A stretch of 64,000 nt of DNA, taken from positions 239,001-303,000 of the forward strand of contig NZ_CANNEZ010000001.1 in assembly GCF_947503795.1 (NCBI RefSeq). Reading direction: 5' to 3'. The notes below the pieces were generated by a model that ran no database searches, was not told the DNA's origin, and saw nothing but the letters and a program-made list of their open reading frames with translations. A program made the position numbers and the translations under genes. Below, one piece after another: positions 10,913 through 16,943 of this stretch (positions within the stretch are counted from its first letter, which is position 1; each line of letters starts with the position of its first letter). This DNA comes from an uncultured Jannaschia sp. (GTDB lineage: Bacteria > Pseudomonadota > Alphaproteobacteria > Rhodobacterales > Rhodobacteraceae).

Positions 10913-10916
<4 letters not shown>

Positions 10917-11293
10917 CTGCCGCCGAAACCGATCTTCGCGACGTCGCGCAGCGTTACTGCGAGGGCGTCTACCACGCGCGCCCCGAGATCTTCGAGGAGA
11001 TCTGCCACGACCGCTTCGCGATGACCGAGATCACGCCCGAGGGTGGCGAGAACGCATGGGACAAGGCGTCCTATCTCGAGCGGGTGCGGGGCCGGTCGGC
11101 CTTTCCGGGCGACGTATCGGCCGAGATCCTCGATGTCGACATCGCGGGTGACGAGATCGCGCGCGTCCATCTCTGGGTCGATGTGCCGCCGCGCCGCTAC
11201 GAGGATCATCTCGGCTTCGTCCGCGTGGACGGGTCGTGGAAGCTTCTGACGAAGGTGTTCCGCACGATGGGCCCTTCGACGGTGGAGGCGTAG
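10913..11293 (+). CDS. NTF2-like / SnoaL-fold protein inside the nuo operon
   Basis: 126 residues starting at a GTG that overlaps the nuoC stop. The pattern ([25 protein letters not shown], acidic middle, then [31 protein letters not shown]) fits the putative lumazine-binding/NTF2-like cone fold with a C-terminal strand ending in WKLLTKVF. Members bind small molecules or act as enzymes or scaffolds, and no catalytic residues can be named here. Strict coupling to nuoC suggests production in proportion to complex I, but a direct role in it is unproved. Confidence 0.75.
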
Positions 11294-11297
11294 GGCG

Positions 11298-11729
11298 GTG
11301 GCCGACACACTCTCCGGACGCTGCCTCTGCGGGGCTTGTGCCTTCACCGCGCGCCCCGACGGGCCCGCGGGGACGGGCGCCTGTCACTGCGGCATGTGCC
11401 GGAAATGGTCGGGCGGCATCTTCATGTCCGTCGATTGCGGCGACAGCGTCGCCTTCGAAGACGGCGCGCCGCTGGGCCGCTTTCGCGGATCGGACTGGGG
11501 CGAGCGGGTGTTCTGCACGGCATGCGGCGCGTCGCTGCTCTGGCAGCTCCAGGACGGCACGCACCAGCATGTCTCGATCCAGTGTTTCGAGGACCCGGGC
11601 CAGTTCGAGATCGGCGTCGAGGTCTTCATCGACAAGAAGCCCGGCAATTACGCCCTCGCGGGCGACCGCAAGACGATGACGGAGGCCGAGGTCTTCGCGC
11701 TCTATGCTTCCGAAGGAGGAACGACCTGA
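11298..11729 (+). CDS. GFA family (CENP-V/GFA domain) zinc protein
   Basis: 143 residues starting at GTG 11298. Zinc ligands typical of the glutathione-dependent formaldehyde-activating fold are present: [10 protein letters not shown] near the start, [12 protein letters not shown] near residues 33-44, and [11 protein letters not shown] near 73-83. The family name comes from one member; most homologues have no proved formaldehyde activity. It sits four bases after the NTF2-like gene and overlaps the nuoD start (TGATG), so it is an integral part of the nuo transcript. Function here is unknown; a thiol or carbon-sulfur substrate is possible. Confidence 0.88.
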
Positions 11730-13032: not shown

Positions 13033-14349
13033 ATGCTTCGCCGCCTCCACAAAGACCAACCCGAGAGCTTCGCCTTCACGCCCGCCAACCAGGCCTGGGC
13101 CGAGGCGCAGATGACGAAGTATCCCGAGGGGCGGCAGGCCTCCGCGATCATTCCGCTGCTCTGGCGCGCGCAGGAACAGGAGGGATGGCTGACACGGCCC
13201 GCCATCGAGCATGTCGCCGACATGCTGGGCCTCGCCTATATCCGGGCGCTCGAGGTCGCGACCTTCTACTTCATGTTCCAGCTTCAGCCGGTGGGCTCGG
13301 TCGCGCATATCCAGATCTGCGGCACGACGTCCTGCATGATCTGCGGGGCCGAGGATCTGGTTGCCGTCTGCCGCGACAAGATCGCCTCGCGTCCCCACGT
13401 GATCAGCGAAGACGGCAAGCTGAGCTGGGAAGAGGTCGAGTGCCTCGGGGCCTGTGCAAATGCGCCGATGGCCCAGATCGGCAAGGATTACTACGAGGAT
13501 CTGACGACCGAGCGCTTCGCCGAGATGCTCGACCAGTTCCGCGCGGGCAAGGTTCCGGTGCCGGGTCCGCAGAACGGCCGCTTCACCTCCGAGCCGCTGG
13601 GCGGGGTCACTTCGCTGACCGATGCGGCAGGATCGAAGGAGGAGGCTGCGAACGGCTCGGTCGCGCTGGCCAACCGCATCGGCGACACGATCAAGCGGAT
13701 CGACGGCACCGAAGTGCCGCTGGTCGCCCCCTGGGGCCGGGCGAACCAGGCCGATGACGACCCGGAGGTCGCGGCGCGCGATCCGATGATGGGGCCGTCG
13801 GGCCCCGACGGCAAACAGGCGGGTCGCGTGCGCGGTCAGGCCGATGCGCCGCGCACGCGGGGTGATGCCAGCGACGGGCGCGCCAATGTCCGCGGCTCCG
13901 ACGCCACGGCCAAGGCGAAGCCCGAGGCCGGCACCGTCGCACCCGAGCCCGAGGGGCGCCCCGCCGCGGGTATCGCGAAGACACACGAGACGCCGACCGT
14001 CACCGGCACGACCGACACGGACGGGATGCCCGCGGGCACCCAGACGGCGGCCGAATCGACCGCGACCGCCGATCCGGGCACCAAGCCCGCGACGCTCGAT
14101 GCGCCGAAGTCCACGGGTGCGGACGATCTCAAGCGCATCCGGGGTGTCGGACCGAAGCTCGAGAAGATGTTGAACGGCATGGGTTTTTGGCATTTCGACC
14201 AGATCGCCGCGTGGTCGGACCGCGAAATTGCTTGGGTCGACGGAAACCTCGAAGGGTTCAAGGGACGCGCAAGGCGTGACGAATGGGTGAAACAGGCTAG
14301 AGTGTTGGCTGAGGGAGGAGAAACCGAGTTCTCCTCGCGCCAGACTTAA
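13033..14349 (+). CDS. nuoE: NADH-quinone oxidoreductase subunit E with C-terminal HhH extension
   Basis: 438 residues, about twice the usual NuoE. Residues 1-175 are the thioredoxin-like 24-kDa subunit with the 2Fe-2S (N1a) ligands Cys96, Cys101, Cys137 and Cys141. Residues about 215-350 form a low-complexity Ala/Pro/Thr/Asp linker. Residues 351-436 form a helix-hairpin-helix domain ([17 protein letters not shown]). It matches the C-terminus of the next gene product at about 62 of 86 positions by hand count. The extension is not needed for electron transfer; it may dock NuoE to the membrane protein encoded downstream. The start has no alternative near it. Confidence 0.95.
14083..14340 (+). 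repeat. Duplicated HhH-domain coding segment, copy in nuoE
   Basis: Codes for NuoE residues 351-436. Its partner at 15076-15333, in the next gene, is about 72 percent identical in protein. The two are direct repeats 993 bases apart. Confidence 0.8.
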
Positions 14350-14397
14350 GCGGGCATCCGAACGGTCGGTCGTCCGCGACAGCAGGGGAGCCGCACC

Positions 14398-15357
14398 ATG
14401 GATGACAACCGGATCCGTCCCATCGGGACACTCGAGAGCGCAGCGACGTCGGCGGGGGTCGCGGCCCTCGCGGGCGCCGGGACCTTCGCGCTTCTCATGT
14501 TGATCGCGGACTGGAGCTTCCTGCAGGCCGTGTTCGGCGGGTTCGTGGTCGCGGCCGTCGTGTTCTGCATCTTGCTCCTGACCATCGCGCGACCGGTCTC
14601 TCGGCCGGTGGGCGCAGGCGGCGTGCAGCGCCCGACCGCCGATCTGGCGCAGGCCGAAGCGCCCGGCACGCCGGGCGAGCCCGCCCGCCCGCTGGCGCCG
14701 CGCGACGTGAACGCGCCCTCGCCGCACAAGGCCTCGATCGACAGCTCGATGATCTCGGACGTGCGCCGCGACGGCATCGGCGATCCGCGCGTCAACCGCG
14801 CGCTGGGCGATCCGTCCCACGCCGTCGGACTGGCGGGCACGGGCCACGCGACCCCGATGCCGGCCCCCGCGCCGGTCGATGCCGACCCGGTCGTGGCCAA
14901 GCCCGCCGCCGCGACCACCGCGCCCAAGCCGCAGGCGCAACCCGCCCCGCTGGATGGCGAGGTGGTCTCGCCCGAGCCGCCCAAGGCCGCGCCCCCGAAA
15001 CCGGCCGCGCCCGCGAAACCCGCCGCGGCGACGTCGTCTGCCAGCGCGGCACCGGATGCGGGCGCCGAGGGCACGAAGCCCGAAACGCTGGACGCCCCGC
15101 GGGGCGGCGCAGCCGACGATCTCAAGCGCATTAAGGGCATCGGCCCCAAGCTCGAGACACTCTGCAATCGACTGGGCTTCTGGCATTTCGACCAGGTCGC
15201 CAGCTGGTCGGACGAGGAGATCGCATGGGTCGACGCCAATCTCGAAGGCTTCAAGGGACGCGTTCGCCGTGACGACTGGGTCGCGCAAGCGAAGCTTCTG
15301 GCCGAGGGCGGCGACACGGCCTTCTCCAAGCGCGTCGACAAGGGTGGGGTCTATTGA
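14398..15357 (+). CDS. Two-span membrane protein with HhH domain, NuoE-tail paralogue
   Basis: 319 residues. Two hydrophobic segments (about 20-43 and 45-64) are followed by a long Ala/Pro/Lys linker (about 70-225) and a C-terminal helix-hairpin-helix domain (227-312; DDLKRIKGIGPKLETLC, then GFWHFDQVASWSDEEIAWVD). The last domain is a clear duplicate of the NuoE tail. HhH domains usually bind DNA, but these two sit in a complex I operon and one is attached to a respiratory subunit. A protein-binding role is therefore more likely. The gene lies 48 bases after nuoE. Sometimes such proteins are annotated as endonuclease-like; I see no nuclease motif. Confidence 0.85.
   Translation: MDDNRIRPIGTLESAATSAGVAALAGAGTFALLMLIADWSFLQAVFGGFVVAAVVFCILLLTIARPVSRPVGAGGVQRPTADLAQAEAPGTPGEPARPLAPRDVNAPSPHKASIDSSMISDVRRDGIGDPRVNRALGDPSHAVGLAGTGHATPMPAPAPVDADPVVAKPAAATTAPKPQAQPAPLDGEVVSPEPPKAAPPKPAAPAKPAAATSSASAAPDAGAEGTKPETLDAPRGGAADDLKRIKGIGPKLETLCNRLGFWHFDQVASWSDEEIAWVDANLEGFKGRVRRDDWVAQAKLLAEGGDTAFSKRVDKGGVY
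15076..15333 (+). repeat. Duplicated HhH-domain coding segment, second copy
   Basis: Codes for residues 227-312 of the two-span membrane protein and is a direct repeat of 14083-14340. Confidence 0.8.
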
Positions 15358-15416: not shown

Positions 15417-15644
15417 ATGACCGAGCCTTCGCCCTCAGACGTGTCGATCGCCAGGATGCAGCGCAACATCGCGCTGGTGATCCTCGGCACCTTCGCGATC
15501 TGGCTGCCGATGCAGGGCATCGCCTATTGGCTGGACCTGCCGACGCGCTTGATGGGACTGCTCGATCTCGTGGCGCTCGCGGCCCTGGGCTGGGCGCTAT
15601 TCATGCTGTTGCGGGTGCGCAAGCTGCGCCGCAAGGAGGACTGA
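15417..15644 (+). CDS. Small two-helix membrane protein, DUF5337-like
   Basis: 75 residues: a short hydrophilic start, then two hydrophobic helices (about 17-38 and 45-65), and a basic tail (RVRKLRRKED) expected to stay in the cytoplasm. It resembles my memory of DUF5337, a family found next to nuoF in Rhodobacteraceae. The stop is three bases before the nuoF ATG, so the two are co-translated. It could be an assembly factor or accessory subunit; no direct evidence. Confidence 0.8.
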   Translation: MTEPSPSDVSIARMQRNIALVILGTFAIWLPMQGIAYWLDLPTRLMGLLDLVALAALGWALFMLLRVRKLRRKED

Positions 15645-15647
15645 CCC

Positions 15648-16943
15648 ATGCTGCAAGATCAGGACCGGATCTTCACCAATATCTACGGCATGGCGGATCG
15701 TTCGCTGAAGGGCGCGCAGGCGCGCGGCCAGTGGGACGGGACCAAGGACCTGATCGCGCTGGGCCGCGACAAGATCGTCGAGATCATGAAGGCGAGTGGC
15801 CTGCGCGGGCGCGGCGGCGCGGGCTTCCCGACGGGCCTCAAGTGGTCCTTCATGCCCAAGGAGAGCGATGGGCGCCCGGCCTACCTCGTCATCAACGCCG
15901 ACGAATCCGAGCCGGGCACCTGCAAGGACCGGGAGATCATGCGCCATGATCCCCACACCCTGATCGAAGGGGCGCTGATCGCGTCCTTCGCGATGGGTGC
16001 GCATGCCTGCTACATCTACATCCGAGGCGAATATATCCGCGAGAAGGAAGCCCTCCAGAACGCCATCGACGAGGCCTACGAAGCGGGTCTGCTGGGCAAG
16101 AATGCCGCCAAGTCGGGCTGGGATTTCGACCTCTACCTGCATCATGGCGCGGGGGCTTATATCTGCGGCGAGGAAACCGCCCTGATCGAGAGCCTCGAGG
16201 GCAAGAAGGGCATGCCGCGCATGAAGCCACCGTTCCCGGCGGGTGCGGGGCTTTATGGCTGCCCCACCACGGTCAACAACGTCGAGTCGATCGCAGTGGT
16301 CCCCACCATCCTGCGGCGCGGCGCCGAATGGTTCGCGGGCTTCGGGCGGCCCAATAACGCCGGCACCAAACTCTTCGCCATCTCGGGCCATGTGAACCGG
16401 CCCTGCGTCGTAGAAGAGGCCATGTCCATCAGCTTCGAGGAGCTGATCGAGACCCATTGCGGCGGTATCCGCGGCGGTTGGGACAACCTCAAGGCTGTCA
16501 TTCCCGGCGGGTCGTCGGTGCCGATGATTCCGGGGAAGGACATGCGCGAGGCGATCATGGATTTCGACTACCTGCGCGAGCAGAAGTCGGGCCTGGGCAC
16601 CGCGGCGGTCATCGTGATGGACAACTCCACCGACGTCATCAAGGCGATCTGGCGGCTGTCGGCCTTCTACAAGCACGAGAGCTGCGGCCAGTGCACGCCG
16701 TGCCGCGAAGGCACGGGCTGGATGATGCGGGTCATGGACCGGCTGGTGAAGGGCGAGGCGGAGGTCGAGGAGATCGACATGCTGCTCGATGTCACCAAGC
16801 AGGTCGAGGGCCATACGATCTGCGCGCTGGGCGACGCGGCGGCCTGGCCGATCCAGGGTCTGATCCGGCACTTCCGCGACGAGATCGAGGACCGCATCCG
16901 GCACAAGCGCACTCCGTCGCCCGCTTCGGTGGCCGCGGAATGA
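15648..16943 (+). CDS. nuoF: NADH-quinone oxidoreductase subunit F
   Basis: 431 residues, the 51-kDa NADH-oxidising subunit. The NADH/FMN site [16 protein letters not shown] lies near residues 52-67, and [14 protein letters not shown] near 172-185. Cluster N3 ligands are Cys346, Cys349 and Cys352 (CGQCTPC), with Cys392 (HTICALGD) as the fourth. It works with NuoE and NuoG in the peripheral arm. The ATG follows the DUF5337 stop, and the end overlaps the MAPEG gene (ATGA). Confidence 0.97.

Follow-up and report, generated by a model that had tools for sequence, protein, structure and literature searches.

The gene that follows nuoE in the window, a stretch of 64,000 nucleotides from an uncultured Jannaschia sp. 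(contig NZ_CANNEZ010000001.1, positions 239,001 to 303,000), encodes a protein that, judged from homology and predicted fold, is a member of the protein-O (LRC) family and not an unknown membrane anchor of complex I. Relatives of this protein, hereafter O, have been seen by cryo-electron microscopy in the reaction centre-light-harvesting 1 (RC-LH1) complexes of Dinoroseobacter shibae (8yy9, 9lts) and Rhodovulum sulfidophilum (9wqv). On balance, we favour a model, rather probable in our view, in which the membrane hairpin of O is part of RC-LH1 in phototrophs and of another membrane complex in non-phototrophs, while its C-terminal helix-hairpin-helix (HhH) domain is a docking tail that shares a partner with the similar tail of NuoE. 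The core of this finding, i.e. a domain common to NuoE and the adjoining membrane protein, is already in print (PMC12079452). Beyond that paper, new here are the distribution of O in 137 intervals between nuoE and nuoF, the tracking of phototrophy by the hairpin, the test of tail and O on a tree, conversion-like tracts and a second shared motif; we make no claim that these are absent from print outside the literature searched. The features of the window on which the model is built are as follows (pLDDT, predicted local distance difference test).

13033..14349, + strand: nuoE of the extended type (438 residues), with NuoE core, low-confidence linker and HhH tail (NF009040, E=1e-175; PF01257, E=9e-50; predicted fold)
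14077..14340, + strand: HhH tail of NuoE, residues 349-436 (64/88 identical to the neighbour; block pLDDT 91-98 over residues 351-438)
14398..15357, + strand: gene of the protein-O/LRC family (319 residues), with two-helix membrane hairpin, linker and HhH tail (homology, predicted fold)
14431..14586, + strand: membrane hairpin of O, residues 12-63, like that of protein-O in the D. shibae RC-LH1 (Foldseek, family profile)
14524..14535, + strand: Q43 to F46 of the O hairpin (equivalent to D. shibae positions 38 and 41), among the positions most associated with phototrophy
15070..15333, + strand: HhH tail of O, residues 225-312 (pairwise BLASTP, predicted fold)

Protein-O as the neighbour of NuoE

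The O gene starts 48 nucleotides past the nuoE stop codon. In the AlphaFold model of O, helices at residues 12-36 and 41-63 form the hairpin, in agreement with the two membrane helices noted in a first-pass annotation of this DNA, and the C-terminal domain is folded with high confidence (block pLDDT 93-98 over residues 231-310, using the family alignment). Both proteins have the linker that was also noted there, in each case modelled with low confidence (in NuoE, mostly under 50 over residues 235-344). For the structure models, 59 O sequences (out of 89) and 47 of NuoE were aligned. The extended NuoE is of a catalogued type, NCBIfam NF009040/PRK12373 (585 bits vs a cut-off of 514, residues 1-436 matched), and fits this family across its whole length with no difference noted.

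When the window protein was used to search the PDB, chain O of 8yy9 (“Reaction center protein O chain”) was matched by the C-terminal stretch with an i-E of 1e-43 and by the hairpin stretch with 17 bits and an i-E of 0.03; 9wqv_a was a further match. A family profile that includes the window protein matches the same chain at E=3e-78, 9wqv_a, by its Foldseek title a chain of the R. sulfidophilum LH1-RC, at E=1e-58, and 9lts_A, the “Protein LRC” of the D. shibae RC-LH1, at E=3e-10. The model of O superimposes on the 52 resolved residues of 8yy9_O, i.e. the hairpin, with a root mean square deviation of 1.2 over 52 columns, a target-normalised TM-score of 0.87 and a weak Foldseek E of 0.27. Among the genomes surveyed below, one that we take as D. 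shibae (G035) encodes a 239-residue O, the first 81 residues of which are the same as in 8yy9_O.

The window O shares with protein-O of D. shibae (ABV93056.1) and 9wqv_a of R. sulfidophilum a two-helix hairpin, a long linker and a C-terminal HhH domain of high similarity, and with the former also the placement of its gene between nuoE and nuoF. According to the D. shibae paper (PMC12079452), residues 8-59 of protein-O are flanked by reaction centre subunit L (RC-L) on one side and by the 11th and 12th alpha subunits of LH1 on the other, the hairpin is closed by a Cys10-Cys59 disulfide, the end with the periplasmic turn contacts Trp266-Met270 of RC-L, and the C-terminal domain resembles that of NuoE; the function of protein-O is reported as unknown, and it has been proposed to act in assembly and in the access of quinone. 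Relatives of the protein are solved as RC-LH1 chains, which could not be known in the first-pass annotation, and the common domain and gene position are described in the same paper. Protein-U of the Rba. sphaeroides RC-LH1 likewise has a two-helix hairpin in a similar place (PMC12079452), and Trp32/Phe33 of its loop touch Trp265/Trp266 of RC-L (PMC8564508). However, the primary sequences of protein-U and O are “quite distinct” according to PMC12079452, and the accessible part of PMC8564508 describes no HhH tail for protein-U.

Two observations weigh against our model. The direct match of the window hairpin to that of D. shibae, at 17 bits, is weak, and the window protein, known here from sequence and model, lacks the hairpin disulfide cysteines (Cys10/Cys59). 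It further differs from the D. shibae protein in length (319 vs 239 residues) and in lacking the KPS..RKGxWxY motif. Because 27 of the 89 family members also have neither cysteine, we do not treat the pair as defining. The window genome carries pufL/M and, by analogy with D. shibae, the hairpin of O in this phototroph would most likely fill a place between LH1 and the reaction centre, where its periplasmic turn would abut subunit L.

Distribution of O and the hairpin in phototrophs and non-phototrophs

Our survey covered 149 genomes of the family to which the window belongs, one per genus, of which 143 have NuoE. Besides the window, 137 nuoE-nuoF regions were fetched; one without nuoF (L165) was dropped, which leaves 137 intervals including that of the window. 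Five genomes (G008, G022, G098, G102, G144), in which NuoE is at a contig end or broken or was not chosen, do not enter this set. A genome was counted as phototrophic if it has the reaction-centre family PF00124 (61/149, with 54 of these among the 137 intervals), and the tree of NuoE and NuoF comprises 136 rows. Calling an O required the HhH domain, and hairpin proteins without this tail were found afterwards by motif pattern; counts of hairpin proteins are, therefore, lower bounds.

O is present in 43 of 54 phototrophs and in 46 of the 83 genomes without PF00124 (raw Fisher p=0.006). The latter number rules out that O is a photosynthesis-only gene. Because O is a widespread gene of the nuo operon, kept by these relatives without a reaction centre, it is not tied to photosynthesis and is unlikely to have been acquired with photosynthesis alone; and its retention in more than half of the sampled genomes that lack a reaction centre means that it probably has a second job. 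On the tree, phototrophy and O change in the same direction in 2.2 and in opposite directions in 1.2 of 13 supported pairs, i.e. a slight association at most in a test of low power, and the presence of O changes 32 times, compared with 39.6 times on average over 200 shuffles. In the genus of the window, PF00124 is present in 14 of 20 genomes, and O was seen in 14/14 phototrophs and 5/6 others. The D. shibae paper left the function and origin of protein-O open (PMC12079452), and the survey answers part of this question. Also, the non-phototrophic relatives with O, among which G003, G009, G013, G049, G055, G093 and G141 are in one to three contigs, allow the partner of protein-O in cells without RC-LH1 to be determined directly by experiment. 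As a separate observation on reaction-centre genes, one surveyed genome (G058) has four matches to PF00124, two on each of contigs C2 and C3 and one of them in an open frame of 1669 residues, and possibly has two sets of reaction-centre L/M genes.

The membrane hairpin appears to co-evolve with the possession of a reaction centre, while the tail resembles that of NuoE. In logistic regression, hairpin residues predict phototrophy with an area under the receiver operating characteristic curve (AUC) of 0.91, compared with 0.80 for the NuoE core, 0.81 for NuoF and 0.73 for the HhH domain of O itself; the out-of-fold AUC is 0.906 for the hairpin vs 0.819 for NuoE and NuoF together. Adding the hairpin score gives a likelihood-ratio p of 1e-8, a figure that ignores relatedness. 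In a scan of hairpin columns that amounted to 839 tests, Phe at position 41 (D. shibae numbering; window position 46) was found in 34/43 phototroph vs 14/46 non-phototroph O, and Gln at position 38 (window position 43) in 14/43 vs 0/46; the window O has both. On the tree, differences at position 41 follow phototrophy in 3.4 and run counter to it in 0.1 of 10 supported pairs, and those at position 38 in 3.0 and 0.0 of 6. In the genus set minus the window, 12/13 phototrophs vs 0/5 others have the Phe and 9/13 vs 0/5 the Gln, where the five non-phototrophs have one common hairpin type and may be related. Going by the hairpin geometry described in PMC12079452, both positions would lie near the periplasmic turn, at which the D. 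shibae hairpin contacts RC-L. Separately, the O hairpin of one genus-mate (G161) reads identical to that of Jannaschia sp. Os4 (loci L011 4625-6001 and L254), which by itself would probably place the window in Jannaschia or a near genus.

Several points count against a hairpin shaped by the reaction centre. The AUC difference of 0.09 has a bootstrap interval of -0.01 to 0.19, which includes zero, and the supported tree pairs are few (6 to 10 per tested hairpin position). In addition, the O of Rhodovulum, a true RC-LH1 chain, seems from our reading of the alignment to have neither Q38 nor F41, one phototroph (G162) has the hairpin type of non-phototrophs, and 29 of the 43 phototroph O lack Q38. 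For these last reasons, the Q38/F41 signature is not required.

The hairpin cysteines are nearly all-or-none, being present in both zones in 57 of the 89 O proteins, in neither in 27 and in one in five. The pair is found in 37/46 non-phototrophs vs 20/43 phototrophs (Fisher p=0.001), and this higher frequency without a reaction centre suggests that the hairpin is maintained there and has another partner. Against this stands the tree, on which the pair and phototrophy change in opposite directions in 2.4 and in the same direction in 0.8 of 9 supported pairs, which is not significant. In our favoured model, O of non-phototrophs, with its differently evolving hairpin, probably serves another membrane complex, for which complex I would be the obvious candidate.

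The shared tails and their partners

By BLASTP of the pair, residues 349-436 of NuoE and 225-312 of O are 64/88 identical and 85% positive (E=4e-45), close to the approximately 62 of 86 counted by hand in the first-pass annotation, and the FWHFDQ segment pointed out there is present in both. The NuoE tail also scores against the models of two ribosomal proteins, L21 and S2, and of the phasin PhaH, all of which have the same type of domain at the C-terminus, and the L21 of the window genome itself bears an HhH tail. No protein with two HhH domains, such as could have revealed pairing, was found among NuoE and the interval open reading frames (ORFs) scanned. The L21 figures that follow are based on 30 loci, for the most part the best-matching ones, out of 60 genomes in which a match exists, and are biased to tailed L21. 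The G-h-G hairpin glycines are present in 110-111 of 112 NuoE, 89/89 O and 25/25 L21 tails, the FKGR arginine in 111/112, 89/89 and 21/25, and the last tryptophan in 111-112 of 112 NuoE and 89/89 O tails and near-universally in those of L21. By contrast, the H and D of HFDQ and the W of AWVD, which are found in 109, 102 and 111 of 112 NuoE and 87, 81 and 83 of 89 O tails, are found in only 6, 4 and 0 of the 25 L21 tails.

The HhH-type domain with its G-h-G glycines, and the same type of tail in the L21, S2 and PhaH models, could mean that the tails bind DNA or RNA and thereby bring ribosomes (via L21 and S2), phasins, RC-LH1 and complex I close to the nucleoid. Lysines and arginines that are conserved in the hairpin segment and the FKGRxxRD segment of the tails would fit such a role. 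However, the charge of the domain, which the first-pass annotation called DNA-binding-type, gives no sign of DNA binding, being near zero to negative (mean net charge -1.0 in NuoE and -0.2 in O), and Pfam HHH_5 scores weakly for the D. shibae protein, at E=8e-4 and under the cut-off. Outside the O family, the fold search ranks NusA AR2 highest, which is there part of a protein-protein complex (6ib8_C), but this match, too, is weak (E=1.4). Together with the residues that NuoE and O have in common and L21 mostly lacks, this makes nucleic-acid binding quite unlikely as the explanation.

An alternative, put forward in the first-pass annotation, is that the two HhH domains bind each other and so form a tether from the peripheral arm to an anchor in the membrane. 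The notion of one domain type on two adjoining gene products, one of them a membrane hairpin, stands, and a docking module is plausible; a tether inside complex I is not upheld, in view of the solved relatives in RC-LH1 and the tree. In its favour are the common operon, the extent of identity between the domains and the long linkers on both proteins. It was also reasoned that co-occurrence of the two genes would speak for such a tether and frequent absence of the second gene beside a NuoE tail against it. The NuoE tail is present in 111 of the 137 intervals, and its raw association with O is positive (Fisher p=0.011; within phototrophs p=0.006; within non-phototrophs p=0.055). However, on the tree the tail and O change in the same direction in 2.7 and in opposite directions in 2.9 of 9 supported pairs, i.e. 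no association, with few informative pairs and low power; within phototrophs, the values are 1.4 and 0.7 of 4 supported pairs, again with low power. As to absence, 33 of the 111 tails lack a tailed O, which goes part of the way against the tether, and 11 of the 89 O lack a NuoE tail, eight of them in phototrophs. Moreover, nine intervals without a tailed O hold an HhH-less hairpin protein at the same place, and in eight of these NuoE keeps its HhH. An obligate partnership of NuoE tail and O is, thus, unsupported by both the interval counts and the tree pairs. The solved complex I of P. denitrificans has a 239-residue NuoE without a tail, and no O-like subunit is named in the accessible part of its structure paper; because its NuoE has no tail, this complex does not test the idea. 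Overall, we do not favour a direct tether between NuoE and O and consider it unlikely.

We return to the docking model, in which the HhH domain of O, on a flexible linker of approximately 160 residues, is probably a docking module, and NuoE would carry the same module on a linker of approximately 110 residues. Both tails would probably bind the same cytoplasmic partner and not necessarily each other, and they would be kept alike by selection for one surface together with occasional gene conversion between the neighbouring genes. Across genomes, the mean identity of the domain is about as high between NuoE and O (0.657) as among NuoE (0.663) or among O (0.667), and within one genome NuoE and O reach 0.698 (78 genomes with both). 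Two intervals contain conversion-like tracts. In one (L131, G103), the DNA of the domain is 98.6% identical with 30/30 four-fold sites equal, and a tract of approximately 270 nucleotides matches at 267/270 bases in its core, while beyond its edges only 5-16 of 30 bases match per block; in the other (L061, G148), the domain DNA is 91.8% identical with 27/34 four-fold sites equal, and identity drops outside. Set against a strong role of conversion, the four-fold identity of pooled same-genome pairs is 0.49 vs 0.46 expected from codon usage; because the excess is so small, conversion would be occasional or sporadic. As a further point against the model, a classifier separates NuoE and O tails with an AUC of 0.83, and the tails are, thus, not fully interchangeable.

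The conversion-like tracts, the frequent gains and losses of O on the tree and the hairpin proteins that end in a motif in place of the HhH could also mean that domain and motif are passengers of little function, spread by recombination between disordered, repeat-rich C-termini. The conservation of the domain speaks against this: when 59 O proteins from as many genera are aligned, 17 columns are invariant, nearly all of them in the HhH, and the near-universal FKGR arginine and last tryptophan stand beside highly variable linkers. We, therefore, regard passenger tails as highly unlikely.

In the nine intervals without a tailed O, the hairpin protein ends in a KPSxxLPGxxELAxRKGxWxY-like motif (weak in L178; in L167 the hairpin looks different). 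The RKGxWxY core is also present in the linker of 23 of the 89 tailed O, that of D. shibae among them, and the motif occurs, in linkers or at ends, in eight NuoE (L065, L070, L078, L101, L103, L120, L126, L138); in L065, NuoE and the hairpin protein both terminate in it, and neither has an HhH. Where NuoE bears the motif, the neighbour mostly does so too (7/8 intervals vs 26/129 others, p=2e-4), which would also fit a direct tether. On the tree, the motif changes eight times in NuoE, and the neighbour changes the same way in 2.7 and the opposite way in 0.1 of 4 supported pairs. Of the 19 motif matches with E under 0.001 in 15 chosen genomes, 18 fall in NuoE or the hairpin protein; the remaining one is at the N-terminus of an ORF in G035 (L244 1423-2424) that, from its sequence, we take to be an ABC-transporter-like ATPase. 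Two different modules common to the same two genes suggest a common cytoplasmic partner, repeated copying between neighbours, or both, and the idea that both tails do the same thing thereby gains some support at the level of sequence.

In a more far-reaching scheme, protein-O could be a switchable adaptor. In phototrophs, its hairpin would be part of RC-LH1, and its tail, whether HhH or KPS..RKGxWxY, would pair with that of NuoE or share its hub, thereby joining RC-LH1 and complex I, both of which are quinone-reducing; in non-phototrophs, the same protein, with a hairpin that evolves differently and more often has the cysteine pair, would serve complex I or another complex, with gene conversion maintaining the match of the tails. 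We consider this scheme as a whole very unlikely. If true, complex I would be joined to the photosynthetic core by a new kind of supercomplex contact.

Other genes of the nuo region

Downstream of O, the window contains the following features.

15417..15644, + strand: small protein with DUF5337 (PF17272; family match)
15648..16943, + strand: nuoF, which closes the interval and was used as anchor

The ORF at 15648..16943 is presumed to be nuoF from its sequence. A DUF5337-like ORF is present in 126 of the 137 nuoE-nuoF intervals; a search of the PDB with a relative from L063 gave no match at E up to 1. Two small ORFs (10913-11293 and 11298-11729) lie further upstream in the window between what we take to be nuoC and nuoD, and the second, with CxCG motifs, presumably resembles formaldehyde-activating GFA proteins.

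Ten intervals (L058, L069, L076, L104, L136, L139, L142, L155, L168, L174) contain, between nuoE and nuoF, a third ORF with an HhH tail, for which no membrane helices are predicted, and several of these ORFs look phasin-like by eye. Another HhH-tailed membrane protein, with an MFKxWGFLLxEIWVLL-like start and mostly one predicted helix, was seen in L010, L014, L015, L019, L021-L024, L028, L031, L034, L046 and L047. In L014 and L024, it adjoins a large ORF, the end of which we take to be OmpA-like.

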